This document shows, in pieces, positions 22,530 through 54,761 of a stretch of 64,000 bases of DNA. The stretch is taken from positions 2,666,001 through 2,730,000 of the forward strand of contig NZ_CP026167.1 of NCBI RefSeq assembly GCF_002902985.1, given 5' to 3'. The notes beneath the pieces were generated by a model. The model saw only the letters and a list, made by a program, of their open reading frames with translations. It did no database searches and was not told the origin of the DNA. Positions within the stretch are counted from its first letter, which is position 1. Every line of letters starts with the position of its first letter. The stretch is from Leclercia sp. LSNIH1 (GTDB lineage Bacteria; Pseudomonadota; Gammaproteobacteria; Enterobacterales; Enterobacteriaceae). A program made the position numbers and the translations under genes.

Positions 22530-23597
22530 ATGGTTGGGTCCTCAACTGGACATGGTAAACGCAACAACCGCAGCACACGGCGCGGAGGCCCACACTCCGG
22601 CAGCGATCTCTTCACCGAAAAATTCTCCCCCTCCACAGCAAATCCTGATTTTTCCGACCTAACGAATGGTGAGCATAGCGATTCGGCCGGGTCATTTAAC
22701 CAAGCAAGCTATGGCTTAGAAGGAAGCCAACCCTCAGATGTTTGTTCGCCTAATCGCACCGACTCTGGTGCGAGTGATGAATACCAACAACTCAAGGTGC
22801 TATCCATGGGAAGACAAAAAGCAGTGATCAAAGCTCGTCGTGAAGCAAAACGTGTGCTGAGACGGGATTCACGTAGCCATAAACAGCGTGAAGAAGAGTC
22901 GGTCACCTCGCTTGTGCAGATGAGTGGTGTTGAAGCAATTGGCATGGCGCGGGACTGCCGTGATACAACTCCAATTGCGGCACGCAACGACGCTCAGGCG
23001 CAGTACCTGAATGCTATTGAGAATAAGTCGCTTATTTTCGCCACCGGTGAAGCCGGGTGTGGGAAAACGTGGATAAGTGCAGCCAAAGCGGCAGAGGCTC
23101 TGATTCACAAAGATGTCGACAAGATCATTGTCACCCGGCCGGTGTTGCAGGCCGATGAAGATCTCGGCTTCTTGCCCGGTGATATTTCGGAGAAATTTGC
23201 GCCGTATTTCCGGCCCGTTTATGACGTGCTGGTGAAGCGTCTGGGGGCCTCTTTTATGCAGTACTGCCTGCGTCCCGAAATCGGTAAGGTTGAAATTGCG
23301 CCGTTCGCCTATATGCGCGGACGTACATTTGAAAATGCAGTTGTGATTCTCGACGAGGCTCAGAACGTAACTGCTGCGCAAATGAAGATGTTCTTAACGC
23401 GCCTCGGGGAGAACGTGACGGTTATCGTCAATGGCGATATCACCCAGTGCGACCTGCCGGCGGGGGTTCCGTCCGGGCTGAGCGACGCGCTGGCACGTTT
23501 TGAGGAAGATGAGATGGTGGGCATTGTGCGTTTCAATAAAGACGATTGCGTGCGCTCGGCGCTGTGCCAGCGGACGCTGCAGGTCTATTCCCGGTAA
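22530..23597 (+). CDS. phoH: PhoH ATPase
   Basis: PhoH is a cytoplasmic P-loop ATPase of the phosphate-starvation (Pho) regulon with a superfamily-1 helicase-like core. The 355-aa frame starts at an ATG with GGAG 7 nt upstream. Walker A is GEAGCGKT at residues 173-180, and Walker B is VVILDEAQN. The first 92 residues form a low-complexity Ser/Asn/Gly-rich tail with no fold I can name. An internal ATG at 22806 (MGRQKAVIKARREAKR), with AAGGTG upstream, would give a 263-aa core protein. I see no convincing pair of Pho-box halves upstream. Confidence 0.92.
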   Translation: MVGSSTGHGKRNNRSTRRGGPHSGSDLFTEKFSPSTANPDFSDLTNGEHSDSAGSFNQASYGLEGSQPSDVCSPNRTDSGASDEYQQLKVLSMGRQKAVIKARREAKRVLRRDSRSHKQREEESVTSLVQMSGVEAIGMARDCRDTTPIAARNDAQAQYLNAIENKSLIFATGEAGCGKTWISAAKAAEALIHKDVDKIIVTRPVLQADEDLGFLPGDISEKFAPYFRPVYDVLVKRLGASFMQYCLRPEIGKVEIAPFAYMRGRTFENAVVILDEAQNVTAAQMKMFLTRLGENVTVIVNGDITQCDLPAGVPSGLSDALARFEEDEMVGIVRFNKDDCVRSALCQRTLQVYSR

Positions 23598-25584: not shown

Positions 25585-25727
25585 AATAGCGTAGGGAGGG
25601 GGGATTGACTCGCTGCTCTCGCCCTACGGGCAGCCCACTCACTGCGTTCGCGGTCTGTCCAACTGGCTGTCGCCAGTTGTCGAACCCCGGTCGGGGATTC
25701 TCATCCCCCCCAGCGGAGAATATAAAA

Positions 25728-25755
25728 GAAAAAAGCCCGTACTTTCGTACGAGCT
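25728..25755 (-). terminator. Terminator of array unit A4
   Basis: Minus-strand stem AGCTCGTAC / GTACGGGCT followed by T residues; it differs from the other units, which have AGCTCGCAT / ATGCGGGCT. Confidence 0.7.
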
Positions 25756-25909
25756 CTTATCTCGAATATGGCGGTGAGGGGGGGATTGACTCGCTGCGCT
25801 CGCCCTACGGGCAGCCCACTCACTGCGTTCGTGGTCTGTCCAACTGGCTGCGCCAGTTGTCGAACCCCGGTCGGGGATTCTCATCCCCCCCACAGGCGAG
25901 CAACATGCG

Positions 25910-25938
25910 AAAAAAAAGCCCGCATTTGCATGCGAGCT
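25910..25938 (-). terminator. Terminator of array unit A3
   Basis: Minus-strand stem AGCTCGCAT / ATGCGGGCT (one G-U type pair) with a 4-nt loop and eight T, 12 nt after a tRNA 3' copy. Confidence 0.75.
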
Positions 25939-26092
25939 CTTCTTTAAATATGGCGGTGAGGGGGGGATTGACTCGCTGCGCTCGCCCTACGGGCAGCCCA
26001 CTCACTGCGTTCGCGGTCTGTCCAACTGGCTGCGCCAGTTGTCGAACCCCGGTCGGGGATTCTCATCCCCCCCCACAGGCGAGCAACATGCG

Positions 26093-26121
26093 AAAAAAAA
26101 GCCCGCATTTGCATGCGAGCT
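26093..26121 (-). terminator. Terminator of array unit A2
   Basis: Identical to the terminator of unit A1, 183 bp further along; stem of 9 bp followed by eight T on the minus strand. Confidence 0.75.
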
Positions 26122-26275
26122 CTTCTTTAAATATGGCGGTGAGGGGGGGATTGACTCGCTGCGCTCGCCCTACGGGCAGCCCACTCACTGCGTTCGCGGT
26201 CTGTCCAACTGGCTGCGCCAGTTGTCGAACCCCGGTCGGGGATTCTCATCCCCCCCCACAGGCGAGCAACATGCG

Positions 26276-26304
26276 AAAAAAAAGCCCGCATTTGCATGCG
26301 AGCT
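26276..26304 (-). terminator. Terminator of tRNA-Ser copy A (unit A1)
   Basis: The stem AGCTCGCAT / ATGCGGGCT with a 4-nt loop and eight T lies 12 nt after the CCA end of the tRNA, so it should end most serX transcripts. Confidence 0.88.
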
Positions 26305-26316
26305 CTTCTTTAAATA

Positions 26317-26404
26317 TGGCGGTGAGGGGGGGATTCGAACCCCCGATACGTTGCCGTATACACACTTTCCAGGCGTGCTCCTTCAGCCACTCGGACACCT
26401 CACC
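26317..26404 (-). tRNA. serX: tRNA-Ser (anticodon GGA), copy A
   Basis: An 88-nt class II tRNA with encoded CCA. The acceptor 5' end GGTGAGG pairs with CCTCACC near the 3' end; the anticodon loop CTGGAAA gives GGA; the variable arm and the T arm GGGGGTTCGAATCCCCC are intact. The sequence matches E. coli serX/serW. In E. coli, serX lies directly before ghrA; here copy B (29847-29934) has that position, so copy A may be the duplicate. The promoter at 26447-26475 is strong. Confidence 0.97.
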
Positions 26405-26446
26405 ATATTGTTTTGCTGCCTTTCTTCTCGGGGGCAACGGGGCGCT

Positions 26447-26475
26447 ACTATAGGGAGTCAGGCTAAAACGGTCAA
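26447..26475 (-). promoter_or_regulatory. Sigma70 promoter of tRNA-Ser copy A
   Basis: Minus-strand TTGACC and TATAGT are separated by exactly 17 bp and followed by a GC-rich discriminator (AGCGCCCC) typical of stringently controlled stable RNA genes. Confidence 0.85.
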
Positions 26476-26518
26476 GCAGATTTTCTGCTTTACTGCGCGT
26501 TCGGTTAAGCAATAAGCA

Positions 26519-26544
26519 GCTCCACGGTTTTCAGGCCGTGGAGC
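26519..26544 (-). terminator. Hairpin downstream of the hydrolase gene
   Basis: A 9-bp perfect stem GCTCCACGG / CCGTGGAGC with an 8-nt loop lies 6 bp beyond the stop of the minus-strand hydrolase gene. There is no proper T-run, so the terminator call is weak. Confidence 0.45.
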
Positions 26545-26550
26545 GGGCGA

Positions 26551-27228
26551 TTAGCGCTGTGAATCGAGTGCTTCCCCGTTCTTTACGACCTCTTGCGCTT
26601 TACCGTAGCTTTCAATCAGCAGCTGATAAGCCGGGAAGATATGGGTATAGACTTCTGCCCACTGCGATGCATCTTCACGATTCCAGGTGCGCTGGATCTC
26701 CGAGGCGACGGCGGCGGTATCCATCGGTACGACGCCAGCCTGGACGATACGTGCCAGGGTAATCTCCTGCGCCATTTTGCTGTAAGTGCCTGACGCATCG
26801 ATCACCGCAAATACCTTATAGCCGTCGGCCACCGCGCTGATCGACGGGAAGGCCATGCAGACGCTGGTAATGGTACCGGCGATAATCAGCGTCTTGCGCC
26901 CGGTCGCCTTCACAGCAGCGACGAAGTCCGGATTATCCCAGGCGTTAATCTCACCCTTACGCGCCACGTACTGCGCATGGGGTGCATTGGCGTGGATCTC
27001 CGGGATCAGCGGCCCGTTTGGCCCTTGCGGTACGGAGGCAGTGGTGATCACCGGGATATTCGCAAGAGTAGCGATTTTTGCCAGCGCCGCGGCGCGGGCA
27101 CGCAGTTCCGGCATCGGCATATCACCCACGGTCTGGAACAGGCCGCTCTGGTGATCGATAAGCAACATCACCGCATCATCGACATCAATGGCCGGACGGG
27201 CGCCGTTAAAGTTAGCAGGGGTAGACAT
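26551..27228 (-). CDS. Isochorismatase-like cysteine hydrolase (YcaC-type)
   Basis: This 225-aa soluble enzyme belongs to the isochorismatase-like hydrolases. The expected triad is visible: Asp25 ([10 protein letters not shown]), Lys91 ([12 protein letters not shown]) and Cys124 ([13 protein letters not shown]), with the non-proline cis-peptide region just before the Cys. The pattern LIDHQSGLF...DMP resembles YcaC-type hydrolases, whose physiological substrate is unknown. It lies 20 bp after the pirin gene and is probably co-transcribed with it. Both are divergent from a LysR gene. The cassette is absent from this place in E. coli K-12. Confidence 0.88.
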
Positions 27229-27248
27229 GATTTTCTCCTTTATTACCT

Positions 27249-28109
27249 TCAGATCTGGCCGAAGCGGCCGGAATTGAAATCGCGAACGGCTTCGGCGATT
27301 TCGCTTTTACTGTTCATCACAAACGGGCCGTAGCCGACGATGGGTTCATTCAGCGGCTCCCCGGCCATCAGCAGCACTTTGGCATCGCTGCTGGCTTCCA
27401 GATGCAGCTTCTCCCCTTGCTGGCTCAGTACCACCAGCTGGGCTTCACCTGCCTGTGCGACGCCGTTCACCGTCACGCTGCCCTCCAGCACCACCAGCGC
27501 GGTGCTCCAGCCCTCAGGTTGGCTGAGCGTAAGATGGCTACCCTGATGCAGGGCGATGTCCCAGACGTTCAGCGGGGAGTAACTGTGCGCCGGACCGGTG
27601 GTCTCCTCGTAGCGTCCGGCGATCACCCGTAGCGATCCGCCGTCGTCAGGTAGCGTCACCACCGGGATCTGACGTTTTGTTATGCTCTGATAGCCCGGCG
27701 CCGTCATCTTGTCCTTCGCGGGCAGGTTGACCCACAGCTGCAACATTTTTAGTTCCCCTCCGTTTTGCGCAAAGGCCCTGGAGTGGAACTCCTCATGCAA
27801 AATGCCGGAGCCTGCGGTCATCCACTGCACGTCACCCGGGCCAATCACGCCGCCTTTACCGGTGGAATCGCGGTGTTCAACTTCGCCGGAATAGACGATG
27901 GTCACCGTTTCAAAGCCGCGGTGCGGGTGATGGCCCACGCCGCGTTTCGCGCCATCCGCCGGGAACGAGTAAGGCCCGGCGTAATCCAGCAGTAAAAATG
28001 GGCTCAGTGGCTCACCATGGGTCTGGTATGAAAACATCGAACGCACCGGAAAACCGTCGCCAACCCAGTGCGGCCGGGGTGCGGTATAAATGCCTGTTAC
28101 GTTTTTCAT
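27249..28109 (-). CDS. Pirin family protein
   Basis: This 286-aa bicupin begins [20 protein letters not shown] with GGAGAAACC before its ATG; an in-frame extension to 28190 has no ribosome site. The N-terminal cupin keeps the metal ligands of pirins: His61 and His63 in [12 protein letters not shown] and His105 and Glu107 in GILHEEF. Some bacterial pirins are quercetin 2,3-dioxygenases or redox-linked regulators; which applies here is unknown. It is the first gene of a two-gene unit with the isochorismatase-like hydrolase, divergent from the LysR regulator. Confidence 0.9.
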
Positions 28110-28191
28110 CGGTTTCTCCTGATGTTCTGTTGATGTAATTAGCTTATATTCAGGGTTAATATTCCGGTAGATAGTGAAAATGACATGCACT

Positions 28192-28207
28192 GTTCCATTT
28201 ATGGAAC
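28192..28207. promoter_or_regulatory. Perfect 16-bp palindrome in the pirin-LysR intergenic region
   Basis: GTTCCAT-TT-ATGGAAC is a perfect inverted repeat located 12 bp before the LysR start codon and 82 bp before the divergent pirin start. LysR regulators normally bind such dyads between their own gene and a divergent target, so this is a likely operator for the neighbouring LysR protein. Confidence 0.6.
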
Positions 28208-28219
28208 GATGAGGACGTT

Positions 28220-29125
28220 ATGCAGGATCTCAATGATTTCGCGTGGTTTGTCAAAGTGGTCGAGTACGGCGGTTTCGCGGCAGCCGGGCGGGCGCTCGAT
28301 CTGCCAAAATCCCGGCTCAGCCGACGGATTGCCCAACTGGAGGCACGGCTTGGGGTACGTCTGATCCAGCGGACAACGCGGCAGTTTACGGTTACTGAAG
28401 TGGGGCAGACCTTCTATCAACACTGCAAGGCGATGCTGATAGAAGCCGAGGCAGCGGAGGAGGCGGTCGCGGCCTTGCAGGCGGAACCGCGTGGCCTGGT
28501 GCGGATCACCTGTCCGGTCACGCTGCTGCACGTCCACGTCGGGCCGATGCTGGCTAAGTTTATGGCGCATTACCCCGGTATTAATCTGCAGCTTGAGGCG
28601 ACCAACCGGCGGGTGGATCTGGTGGCGGAGGGTGTTGATATCGCCATCCGTGTGCGTCCTCGCCCATTTGATGACAGCGATCTGGTGTTGCGGGTGCTTG
28701 CCGACAGAGGGCACTGCCTGGTGGCGAGTCCGCAGTTGATCCAGCGTCTGGGTGTGCCGGCCACGCCATCGGAGCTCAGCGCCTGGCCGGGCCTGAGTCT
28801 GGGGGAGGGGAGACAGGTTCATAAGTGGGCGCTAAGCGGGCCGGAGGGGGCAAAAGCGGAGATCCATTTTCAGCCGCGCCTGATGACCACCGATATGCTG
28901 GCGCTGCGGGAGGCGGCGATAGCGGGCGTGGGGCTGGTGCAGTTACCCATTTTGATGGTCAAAGAGCAACTGGCGTCCGGGACATTAATAAAAGTGCTGG
29001 AAGAGTGGGAGCCACGCCGGGAAGTGATCCATGCGGTCTATCCCTCCCGGCGCGGGCTGTTGCCGTCAGTCAGGACGCTGGTGGATTTTTTGACCGGGGA
29101 GTATGCGCGGATGGTGGAGGAGTGA
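28220..29125 (+). CDS. LysR-family transcriptional regulator
   Basis: This 301-aa LysR protein has the N-terminal winged helix-turn-helix (LNDFAWFVKVVEYGGFAAAGRALDLPKS..., residues 4-31, then LSRRIAQLEARLGVRLIQRTT) and a C-terminal effector domain (GLVRITCPVTLLHVHVGP, VDIAIRVRPRPFDDSDLV). It is divergent from the pirin/hydrolase pair across 110 bp containing a perfect palindrome, so control of that pair is likely. The inducer is unknown. It resembles the large DsbR/AaeR-like group of one-gene regulators, but I cannot name an orthologue. Confidence 0.9.
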   Translation: MQDLNDFAWFVKVVEYGGFAAAGRALDLPKSRLSRRIAQLEARLGVRLIQRTTRQFTVTEVGQTFYQHCKAMLIEAEAAEEAVAALQAEPRGLVRITCPVTLLHVHVGPMLAKFMAHYPGINLQLEATNRRVDLVAEGVDIAIRVRPRPFDDSDLVLRVLADRGHCLVASPQLIQRLGVPATPSELSAWPGLSLGEGRQVHKWALSGPEGAKAEIHFQPRLMTTDMLALREAAIAGVGLVQLPILMVKEQLASGTLIKVLEEWEPRREVIHAVYPSRRGLLPSVRTLVDFLTGEYARMVEE

Positions 29126-29129
29126 GGCC

Positions 29130-29293
29130 GGGTTTGGGTTTCGTAGGTCGGGTAAGCCTGGCGCCACCCGACGCTTCCAGAGCGCGCGGTATTGCATTAA
29201 GGCAAAATGCCTGATGGCGCTGCGCTTATCAGGCCTACGGAATCGAGGCTGGATTTGGGTTTCATAGGTCGGGTAAGCGTAGCGCCACCCGAC
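29130..29293. repeat. BIME cluster of three REP-like units
   Basis: GTCGGGTAAGCCTGGCGCCACCC, GCCTGATGGCGCTGCGCTTATC and GTCGGGTAAGCGTAGCGCCACCC lie in alternating orientation directly after the LysR gene. The cluster abuts the truncated end of array B. Confidence 0.75.
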
Positions 29294-29364
29294 ATGTACT
29301 GGCTGTCGCCAGTTGTCGAACCCCGGTCGCGGGTTCTCATCCCCCCACAGACGTGCAACATGCG

Positions 29365-29393
29365 AAAAAAAAGCCCGCATTTTCATGCGAGCT
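29365..29393 (-). terminator. Terminator of array unit B3
   Basis: Minus-strand 9-bp stem AGCTCGCAT / ATGCGGGCT (loop variant GAAA) followed by eight T. Confidence 0.75.
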
Positions 29394-29621
29394 CTTCTTT
29401 AAATATGGCGGTGAGGGGGGGATTGACTCGCTGCGCTCGCCGTTACTCGGCCCATCCATGGGCCTCGCCCCTTCGGGGCCAACGCAAGCGTTGTTCAAAA
29501 ACGCTCCCTGCGTTTTTGTTCGGGCAGCCTGTTCGCTGCGCTCTCAGTCTGTCCAACTGGCTGCGCCAGTTGTCGAACCCCGGTCGGGGGTTCTCATCCC
29601 CCCACAGGCGAGCAACATGCG

Positions 29622-29650
29622 AAAAAAAAGCCCGCATTTGCATGCGAGCT
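29622..29650 (-). terminator. Terminator of array unit B2
   Basis: Minus-strand 9-bp stem with eight T, located 12 nt after a 19-bp tRNA 3' copy. Confidence 0.75.
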
Positions 29651-29805
29651 CTTCTTTAAAGATGGCGGTGAGGGGGGGATTGACTCGCTGCGCTCGCCCT
29701 ACGGGCAGCCTGTTCGCTGCGCTCTCAGTCTGTCCAACTGGCTGCGCCAGTTGTCGAACCCCGGTCGGGGATTCTCATCCCCCCCCCACAGGCGAGCAAC
29801 ATGCG

Positions 29806-29834
29806 AAAAAAAAGCCCGCATTTGCATGCGAGCT
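29806..29834 (-). terminator. Terminator of tRNA-Ser copy B (unit B1)
   Basis: Same stem AGCTCGCAT / ATGCGGGCT and eight T as in array A, 12 nt beyond the tRNA CCA. Confidence 0.88.
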
Positions 29835-29846
29835 CTTCTTTAAAGA

Positions 29847-29934
29847 TGGCGGTGAGGGGGGGATTCGAACCCCCGATACGTTGCCGTATACACACTTTCC
29901 AGGCGTGCTCCTTCAGCCACTCGGACACCTCACC
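29847..29934 (-). tRNA. serX: tRNA-Ser (anticodon GGA), copy B
   Basis: This 88-nt tRNA gene is identical in every position I compared with copy A at 26317-26404, in the same orientation. It sits divergent to ghrA, which is the position of serX in E. coli, so it is probably the ancestral serX. Only about 7 bp upstream of the tRNA are shared with copy A; the promoters differ. Confidence 0.97.
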
Positions 29935-29968
29935 ATATTGTCATCCCGTTGTTGCTGGGACGGGCGCT

Positions 29969-29997
29969 AATGTAAGGAAAAGCCTGACTTACGTCAA
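29969..29997 (-). promoter_or_regulatory. Sigma70 promoter of tRNA-Ser copy B
   Basis: Minus-strand TTGACG and TACATT with exact 17-bp spacing and a GC-rich discriminator AGCGCCC. Its -10 is weaker than that of copy A. Confidence 0.8.
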
Positions 29998-35450: not shown

Positions 35451-36196
35451 GATGAAACCCCTTTTTATGAAACACCTGGCAGTTGCCCCCAATATATTAT
35501 TGGGGGCACCAGAAGTACTGACAGATGTTGCACTGCTGTGTGTAGAAGAAAGACCATATCCCTTAGAGAGAAGGGAAAATTAATTCGCAATGCCGAACTT
35601 CTGTTTTCAATCTAGCTTTAACGTTTTTTAAAGCAAGTGTTAAACTTGTAACAGGATGTAAAAATCAATATTACTTTGTAAAAAATGAGTTCATGAATTG
35701 ATTAGAAATCATCAAAAAGTTGTACATTAAGATATTGGTGCACACATTTTAAAAGTCATACAAATTGGATTAAGTTATTGATTTTTATAGGTCATATAAA
35801 TTTTAGGCTATTAGCGATAAGGTATGAGCCAGGGCAAAACGCTAAGCCTATTTTTACAATGTGTAAACGCCTTAAGAAATCACGGACTTTGTCACGCAAT
35901 CATGGATATATTCCGTTTTCTCTCTTCTTGACCAGCGAAACGGCAAATCCACGCATTTGTGGTTTTCCATTTCTGCAAAGTGAAAATGGTCCTTGCTGAC
36001 CCTCTGTAAAATCGTTGTATCGCCACGGTATTTAATTTTAATTAATACTTTGGGGTGAACGAAAGAATAAAAATACAACTGGCGGGTGAGATATTAAAAT
36101 TGTTTCGGCAGACATACTCTTCATCGTAACGCCGGGTTAACAAAATATTTGCTCTTGTTAACGCAGTTATTATACCACCAGGTCCAGGGTGATAAC
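35451..36196. promoter_or_regulatory. csgD-csgB intergenic control region
   Basis: This 746-bp AT-rich region holds the two divergent curli promoters. It is known in E. coli as one of the most heavily regulated intergenic regions (OmpR, CpxR, IHF, H-NS, RstA, MlrA). I can place only the CsgD box (36083-36093) with confidence. No gene with a ribosome site is visible. Confidence 0.8.
36083..36093 (+). promoter_or_regulatory. CsgD binding site upstream of csgB
   Basis: CGGGTGAGATA matches the CsgD consensus CGGGKGAGNKA at every position, 104 bp before the csgB start, as at the E. coli csgBA promoter. Confidence 0.8.
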
Positions 36197-53665: not shown

Positions 53666-54712
53666 TTAACGCTTCACTGTCCACTGAACGGTTTCACCCG
53701 CGAGGAAGGGGATCAGGGTGTCGTCAGTCAGGGGGATGGATTCCACGACGCTGCTCTCTTCGCGCACCAGCTCAACAACGCCCTCATTCACCGGCAGACC
53801 GTAGAAACGCGGCCCGTTCAGGGAGCAGAACGCCTCGAAATGTTGCAGGGCATTCATCTCGTCAAAAACCTGCGCGTAGCTGGCAAGGGCGGTCGGGGCA
53901 TTAAAGCAGCCTGCACAGCCACAGCTGGCCTCTTTACGATGACGGGCATGGGGCGCGGAGTCGGTGCCGAGGAAGACGCGCGCAAAGCCGCTGGCAACCA
54001 GCTCGCGCAGCGCTTGCTGGTGGACATTGCGTTTGAGGATCGGCAGGCAGTAGAGGTGCGGACGCACGCCACCTACCAGCATATGGTTGCGGTTGAACAT
54101 CAGGTGCTGCGGGGTGATGGTGGCCGCCAGGAGCTCGTTGCCATCGCGCACGTACTCCGCGGCATCTTTGGTGGTGATGTGTTCAAACACCACTTTCAGA
54201 CCCGGCAGGCGCTGGCGCAGCGGCTCCATCACGGTTTCGATGAAACGCGCTTCACGGTCGAAAATGTCGACGTCGGCATGAGTCACTTCGCCGTGCACCA
54301 GCAGGGGCATCCCCAGTTTTTCCATGCGCTCGAGCACCGGCATAATCGCGTCAATGCTGGTGACACCGTGGCTGGAGTTGGTGGTGGCGTTGGCCGGATA
54401 GAGTTTGGCGGCGGTAAAGACCCCTTCGCTAAAGCCGCGCTCAATCTCATTCGCATCGAGCGTGTCGGTCAGATAACAGGTCATCAGCGGGGTAAAATCG
54501 TGACCGGCAGGCACGGCATCAAGAATGCGCTGGCGATAGGCGATCGCCGCATCGACCGTGGTGACCGGCGGCACCAGGTTTGGCATGACAATCGCGCGGC
54601 CATAAATTTCACTGGTATACGGCACGACGGTTTTCAGCATATCGCCATCGCGAAGATGGATATGCCAGTCGTCTGGGCGGCGGATTTTCAAAACCTGGGA
54701 TTGTGCAGTCAT
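53666..54712 (-). CDS. pyrC: Dihydroorotase PyrC
   Basis: PyrC closes carbamoyl aspartate to dihydroorotate, step 3 of pyrimidine synthesis. The 348-aa product equals the E. coli length. Zinc ligands His17 and His19 are in [11 protein letters not shown], the carboxylated Lys103 in AAKLYPANA, and further metal ligands in VHGEVTH and FEHITTKDA; the catalytic Asp is in [10 protein letters not shown] leader hairpin and a PurR box lie upstream. Confidence 0.97.
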
Positions 54713-54719
54713 GGATAGG

Positions 54720-54749
54720 CTCCGGCTGAGTGAGATGATTTTTGCCGGA
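54720..54749 (-). promoter_or_regulatory. pyrC leader hairpin covering the ribosome site
   Basis: On the minus strand, TCCGGC at the transcript 5' end pairs with GCCGGA that contains the GGAG ribosome site 8 nt before the ATG. In E. coli and Salmonella, choice between C and G transcription starts in such a CCGG sets whether this hairpin forms, so expression follows the CTP/GTP balance. The elements are conserved here. Confidence 0.85.
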
Positions 54750-54761
54750 CACAAAGAATAG

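Follow-up and report, generated by a model that had tools for sequence, protein, structure and literature searches.

A known RtT/TLR array behind serX in Leclercia sp. LSNIH1, and a predicted closing helix that fits its host tRNA

Repeats linked to tRNA genes have been recognised since 1978, and in E. coli K-12 these "tRNA-linked repeats" (TLRs) number 22 copies at ten loci; a 2021 paper still assigns them no function and states that a role of RtT in the stringent response was withdrawn by its authors (PMC8144298). As described there, the E. coli TLRs stand in tandem, share 18-19 bp with the 3' end of the upstream gene, and have several tRNA hosts as well as 5S rRNA. Another paper likens rtT to BIME-like attenuators in Enterobacteria (PMC2965389), and earlier reports of RtT come from Pasteurellaceae (PMC4986893) and Thioalkalivibrio (PMC8092127). 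The closest described relatives of the array considered here are the RtT RNA (Rfam RF00391), known as RttR in the E. coli tyrT operon, and the sRNAs RrA, RrB and RrF that lie 3' of 5S rRNA. In the latter, a similar core (CGTTGC..GCAACGGCCCGGAGGG) lies between two terminators together with a copy of the 5S 3' end, which is 18 bp long according to PMC8144298 and 13 nt exact in the present comparison.

The window analysed here is a stretch of 64,000 nucleotides from Leclercia sp. LSNIH1, and the serX array in it is a member of this known family (RtT/TLR) at a known kind of locus (Table 1). As the initial annotation of this DNA had described, with 181 bp for the last unit, the minus-strand tRNA-Ser(GGA) has four head-to-tail units of 183, 183, 182 and ~182 bp behind it (TRF: period 183, 4.0 copies, 95% matches, 25598-26335), and the first three end in the exact last 19 bp of the tRNA, at spacings of 183, 183 and 182. 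By simple arithmetic, about 5e-7 chance matches to a 19-mer are expected in 64 kb, and no exact match to the last 19 nt of the tRNA was found on the plus strand of the window. Units 1 and 2 are 100% identical. In unit 4 the 3' end departs from the copy, so that the 19-nt copy is broken; its far boundary was chosen by us. Each unit runs from a short spacer through a terminator-like hairpin with a T-rich tract and a GC-rich element of ~120 nt to the tRNA-end copy. The terminator and the foldable GC-rich stretch that had been proposed for every unit are both there: folding predicts a 10-bp hairpin before the T-rich tract in all four (MFE -15.4 to -16.5 kcal/mol), of which a simpler terminator scan of the minus strand detected only that of unit 4, and all four units pass the curated cut-off of the Rfam RtT covariance model (46.2-52.9 bits versus 45). 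The family named by this model is that of E. coli tyrT, whose likeness to the present array had been suggested beforehand.

Table 1. Features of the two tRNA-Ser(GGA) loci in the window.
Feature	Position	Strand	Evidence
tRNA-Ser(GGA), serX-type host gene	26317..26404	-	ARAGORN; Rfam tRNA 26320-26404
Unit 1, 183 bp: terminator, RtT element, exact copy 26134-26152	26134..26316	-	Rfam RtT 26134-26270, 52.9 bits
Unit 2, 183 bp, same as unit 1; exact copy 25951-25969	25951..26133	-	RtT 25951-26087, 52.9 bits
Unit 3, 182 bp, 98.9% identical to units 1 and 2; exact copy 25769-25787	25769..25950	-	RtT 25769-25905, 48.7 bits
Unit 4, ~182 bp, 85.6% identical to unit 1; copy degenerate past AATCCCCCC	25587..25768	-	RtT 25589-25725, 46.2 bits
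Unit 1 intrinsic-terminator-like hairpin and T8	26276..26305	-	Folding; positions from unit sequence
Terminator-like hairpins of units 2, 3 and 4	near 26093-26122, 25910-25939, 25727-25756	-	Folding; positions from unit sequences
Second tRNA-Ser(GGA)	29847..29934	-	ARAGORN
Second TLR array: two units, exact copies 29663-29681 and 29406-29424	29406..29846	-	RtT 29663-29799, 52.2 bits

Compared with RttR of tyrT, the units at serX have the same order of parts and the same 19-nt copy of the tRNA end, and the Rfam structure already includes the helix that closes the element. Four units here, and one at a second tRNA-Ser gene, exceed the cut-off. The differences are that the host is Ser(GGA) rather than Tyr, that each window unit carries a terminator, and that the serX units score 46-53 bits with the RtT model versus 130 bits for the Tyr unit in the same genome. 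This genome has 14 RtT matches, of which 11 exceed the cut-off; they lie next to tRNA genes for Tyr, Pro, Ser and Arg and to Lys/Val clusters. Compared with the E. coli TLRs, we see no difference in kind. The window array stands directly 3' of its tRNA gene with a number of units within the one to five described for TLRs, and 18-19 bp of 3' identity to the upstream gene is found in units 1-3 of the first array and in two units of the second, unit 4 being the exception. The locus, near ghrA, is also the same; in the window its tract counts four units and a further array is present. The initial annotation was right that the tyrT design recurs on another tRNA, but such recurrence is not new: the TLR family was already described (PMC8144298), and serX of E. 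coli MG1655 itself carries three exact copies, 181 bp apart. The annotation "RtT sRNA" is given at serX in some E. coli genomes; in the RefSeq record of a strain other than MG1655 it stands three times 3' of the gene. Among complete E. coli genomes, 5375 of 5426 match our query, a count that is an upper bound for the repeats since the query contained the tRNA itself.

The second tRNA-Ser, which the initial annotation does not mention, lies 3.5 kb from the first. Its array yields one RtT match above the cut-off, the fifth in the window; the second unit is lengthened by extra sequence, and by eye a partial third unit appears to reach ~29300. On one side, the first array is flanked by a gene of the sodium:alanine symporter family and a PhoH gene (Pfam). 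On the other side lie isochorismatase, pirin and LysR-type genes and the second tRNA-Ser, then genes for a 2-hydroxyacid dehydrogenase and a PHP-domain protein (Pfam). Because the last two occupy the places of E. coli ghrA and ycdX, we take the locus as the serX neighbourhood; the E. coli order is ghrA-serX-ycdU. The isochorismatase, pirin and LysR-type genes sit between two tRNA-Ser(GGA) genes that each have their own TLR array (26317-29934), which looks like a gene islet bounded by tRNA and TLR repeats. Two tRNA-Ser genes are found here in many Enterobacter, Leclercia and Klebsiella loci, and one in the Citrobacter loci that have this tRNA. Two plus-strand open frames run antisense across the repeats, one of 282 amino acids over the first array (25605-26453) and one of 205 amino acids over the second (29353-29970); similarly, the TLR region 3' of serW in E. 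coli CB8671 is covered by an annotated "hypothetical protein". Such antisense frames are probably spurious. Elsewhere in the window, Rfam Ysr251 matches (136.6 bits) at 23396-23589 on the minus strand, antisense within the PhoH gene (22530-23597), and minus-strand matches to the ES056 sRNA and the PyrC leader lie at 35504-35605 and 54709-54760.

How widely is the element distributed? RtT was detected in 33 of the 60 family genomes, in 36 of 184 from the class (taken as Gammaproteobacteria from the named relatives) and in 31 of 249 from the phylum, where the window genome is counted in each tally and stricter filters lose weak matches. Fifteen of the 31 positive genomes at the phylum level belong to one family of another class. 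A wide spread is only partly new, given the earlier reports, and what is added here is the number of genomes and the second class. We collected 147 RtT loci from RtT searches or listed places, with some overlap and several covering the window array. In 135 of them the 3' end of a tRNA recurs downstream of that same tRNA with no more than 3 mismatches (126 exact); 11 others have a tRNA without such a copy, and one, on a short contig, has no tRNA. The nearest upstream tRNA is of the copied type in all 172 distinct units. Similar units at other tRNA loci, for which the initial annotation had called, are therefore present; counted by anticodon, the hosts are twelve tRNA species, for Tyr, Lys, Pro, Ser, Arg and Gln. 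A short form is seen in the Arg(ACG) units (L012-L014) and in some Lys units (L003, L004, L008), where the hairpin of strands b and b', described below, is missing and strand a leads directly into the core; the Arg(ACG) and Lys short-form cores are ~80% alike and strand a varies with the host. Two loci (L138, after 3972; L139, after 3975) carry, at the place 3' of the terminator that a TLR occupies in relatives, only an isolated inverted T-arm (GGGGATTCGAAC), which may be a scar left when a TLR was lost. No TLR copy is seen in seven relatives with a tRNA-Ser end of ACCCC.. rather than ATCCC.. (L150, L161, L162, L167, L179, L194, L202); L156 is the exception among such relatives and has one.

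In the long form, strand a is followed by strand b (GAGAACC-type), strand b' (GGTTCGA), a hairpin core and finally the copy, a'. In the predicted MFE folds of the four units behind serX, helices form between a and a' and between b and b', and the closing helix is present in all four. The copy has a sharp upstream boundary: in 131 of 131 parsed units it starts at the centre of the T-loop (nt 58/59), and any identity upstream of nt 59 runs for only 0-2 nt. These units were parsed from 185 by an anchored search, which excluded short-form units (Arg and some Lys) as well as those lacking a GGTTCG anchor. In that search, the pairing of strand a with its own copy is better than its pairing with the 3' ends of foreign tRNAs in all host types (27 of 27). 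In a freer set, which required only A[TC]CC at the start of the copy, the comparison was made with the host tRNA itself, and strand a pairs better with it than with the tRNAs of other hosts in 28 of 28 host types. The anchored search took the place of one with free positions, whose outcome was noisy (26 of 33 types). At nt 63-68, 120-144 of 162 pairs form versus 93.8 +/- 5.1 after the strands are reshuffled among hosts, and none of 500 shuffles reaches the observed pairing in any of 20 picks; each pick takes one unit per distinct host segment (27 segments), and the shuffling ignores relatedness. At nt 64 the pairs across these host segments are C-G in 6, T-A in 2, G-C in 7, A-T in 8, and four others, i.e., all four Watson-Crick pairs occur and both sides change together. 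The covariance support that the initial annotation had asked for is thus found for the closing helix. In addition, b' tracks the T-stem of the host in 15 of 17 stem types.

Past the CCA, likeness to the tRNA flank either ends at once or continues. Among the units whose identity ends within 3 nt past the CCA, 54 of 65 copies are exact, in a collection gathered at up to 3 mismatches and hence not free of selection; in the freer set, 106 of 134 are exact. The median identity of same-type cores between genomes is 0.75 for Tyr, 0.73 for Lys, 0.81 for Ser-GGA, 0.84 for Pro-TGG and 0.92 for Pro-CGG. Sites where copy and tRNA differ are too few to tell which of them strand a follows (4 versus 2). By eye, strand a seems paired with the copy at two loci where the tRNA-Ser end differs, as GGGGC-GCCCC in L156 and as GGGAGGGAT-ATCCCTCCC in L136. 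We dropped a 12-bp acceptor/T minihelix for RNase P, since the pairing fades beyond ~nt 68 in most types. A strand a matched to the 5S end was not seen by eye in the rrB unit, whose host is 5S.

Folding and pair counts bear on whether the element acts as RNA. In 78 of 88 units, folding relative to shuffles is better for the sense strand than for the antisense strand (mean excess +3.65 kcal/mol), compared with 58 of 110 arbitrary stretches (0.31), 57 of 94 tRNAs (0.60) and 25 of 25 6S RNAs (8.72 kcal/mol). This bias towards the tRNA-sense strand favours selection on the transcript without proving it, the test being unspecific because tRNAs, which are true RNAs, hardly exceed arbitrary DNA. The core hairpins contain fewer G-U than A-C pairs (30 versus 51), about as in shuffles, a comparison that does not decide because it is also flat in 6S, RNase P and tRNA controls; in the closing helix it was suggestive (20/180 versus 14/374, 12 units skipped), and with core hairpins and controls flat we rejected it as a sign of selection on RNA. 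The same holds for the closing pair of a CCC-GGG hairpin, where a restricted count of 19 G-U and 0 A-C lost its effect in the unrestricted one (GC 61, GT 23, AC 9, AT 4, others 7); paired change of these closing letters was not found.

A terminator-like site lies between the tRNA and the first TLR in 16 of 16 Pro, 22 of 26 Ser-GGA, 14 of 36 Lys and 0 of 29 Tyr loci. Where it is present, a transcript of the TLR would therefore arise only by read-through, and little RNA may be made. The annotated 3' end of E. coli RttR coincides exactly with the CCA of the copy. RrB (173 nt) ends 3 nt beyond the 5S repeat, and its authors proposed recognition by RNase E (PMC8144298). RNA-seq in Thioalkalivibrio detected an RtT RNA that increases at 10 degrees C (PMC8092127). 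By analogy with these relatives (RttR, RrA/B/F), it is plausible that the window units also give rise to small RNAs.

Our preferred reading, to which we give a probability of about one half, is that the TLR is an RNA module made by read-through, in which the 3' half of the host tRNA end is rebuilt so that the 3' processing of the host can free it. Each unit would be an RtT/TLR, a structured RNA module kept 3' of a stable-RNA gene. Transcription would continue beyond the tRNA, in the window by passing a terminator as it does at rrnB, and the read-through RNA would fold as a closed multi-branch structure. Its last helix would be formed by the 5' strand a and by a', the copy of the 3' strand of the host tRNA (nt 59 to CCA). 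Because the end of the unit resembles half of the T/acceptor stem of a tRNA with its CCA tail, host 3' processing could release the RNA; both this trimming and the read-through are what we infer. When the host tRNA changes, both strands of the helix would follow. The sequences themselves show the order of parts, the sharp boundary of the copy, the fit of strand a to the host and a folding bias of the sense strand. Weighing against the reading are the terminator-like sites ahead of the first TLR in many loci, the CCC-GGG closing letters that do not change in pairs, the rrB unit, and the loci from which copies are missing.

The main rival to this read-through module, and a rather doubtful one, is passive tandem duplication, in which a segment made of the tRNA 3' end, a terminator and filler spreads and shrinks by unequal exchange and has no function. 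It would account for the identity of units 1 and 2 and for the variation in copy number, which is 0, 2, 3, 3, 4 and at least 6 units in six E. coli serX loci. A length variant of 175 bp, listed for the rtT RNA between two Salmonella serovars (PMC2658671), fits as well. Among related tRNA-Ser(GGA) loci, 19 of 36 have no copy at up to 4 mismatches, some of them keeping a degenerate TLR or ending at a contig edge. The array is thus dispensable, as copies are absent from these loci and from one of the six in E. coli. Against passive duplication stand the match of strand a to the host in 27 of 27 host types, the copies that remain exact (54 of 65 among those whose identity ends at the CCA) while same-type cores diverge between genomes, and the recurrence of the element on twelve tRNA species.

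We consider unlikely the mobile or self-copying module suggested in the initial annotation, here taken as aimed at the T-loops of tRNAs. Several features of the units would suit it: the boundary lies sharply at the T-loop centre on every parsed tRNA type, the sequence before the core is like the 5' strand of the host T-stem (15 of 17 stem types) as if the core sat inside a second copy of the T-arm, and a similar core recurs behind tRNAs for Tyr, Lys, Pro, Ser, Arg and Gln and after 5S. Recent mobility is nevertheless not borne out by the relationships of the cores. For 139 of 168 cores the nearest relative belongs to another genome but to the same tRNA type; for the remaining 29 it is of another type in another genome, which would suit mobility. 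Although 112 of the 168 cores (21 genomes) have a unit of another type in the same genome, none is nearest to it (0 of 112). The arrays therefore mostly descend with their tRNA gene; as judged from these sequences, spread between tRNA types would be old or rare, and recent jumping is unsupported.

Searches of phage, plasmid and viral-contig sequences, of low power, found no clear carrier of a TLR. Three TLR-tRNA junction patterns had 0 matches in viral contigs, where power is low because even the plain tRNA-Ser end yields only 3 matches. Phage records gave one 26-nt match in one record. Plasmid matches came from 40 records, 36 of them non-mobilizable, and several of the 20 listed are chromosome-sized. 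By eye, most of 23 viral stretches with a GATGAGAACC..GGTTCGA motif look like chance matches, and three (L285, L288, L300) carry TLR-like sequence. In L285 a tRNA 3' end is followed by a TLR at an apparent element edge, and near 6720 of L300 a prophage edge apparently lies within the TLR core behind tRNA-Ser(GGA) (both by eye).

Two further explanations fare worse. The region behind tyrT is said to act in fail-safe or Rho-dependent termination, and a general role as such a region behind tRNA operons would agree with the terminator-like hairpin in each window unit; we think it quite improbable, as Tyr loci have no terminator-like site before the TLR (0 of 29) and termination does not need an exact tRNA copy. 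That the copies are spare attachment sites, offering phage or island integrases an alternative to the tRNA gene, is the least credible: the copy has what we take to be the extent of a tRNA-type att core, and L285 and L300 show, by eye, elements at TLR-bearing tRNA loci, but integration at a copy was not seen, the three junction patterns had no matches in viral contigs, and a matched strand a is not predicted.

Returning to the read-through module, the point that may be new is that, in many hosts and many genomes, sequence comparison shows a closing helix fitted to the host tRNA, which can be tested. In those parts of the open-access literature that were searched, we came across no mention of a strand a fitted to its host. 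A more speculative extension, which we regard as rather doubtful, is that of a host-addressed module, with a closing helix tailored to its one tRNA in every host type tested and in two classes. Such a module might act on the transcript of its own tRNA: strand a would compete for the 3' strand of the tRNA until the downstream copy captures it, and the array would thereby tune the 3' maturation or the read-through of only that tRNA. Host matching on 27 host ends gives a concrete handle on the element, in that strand a, the copy and the host can each be altered singly.
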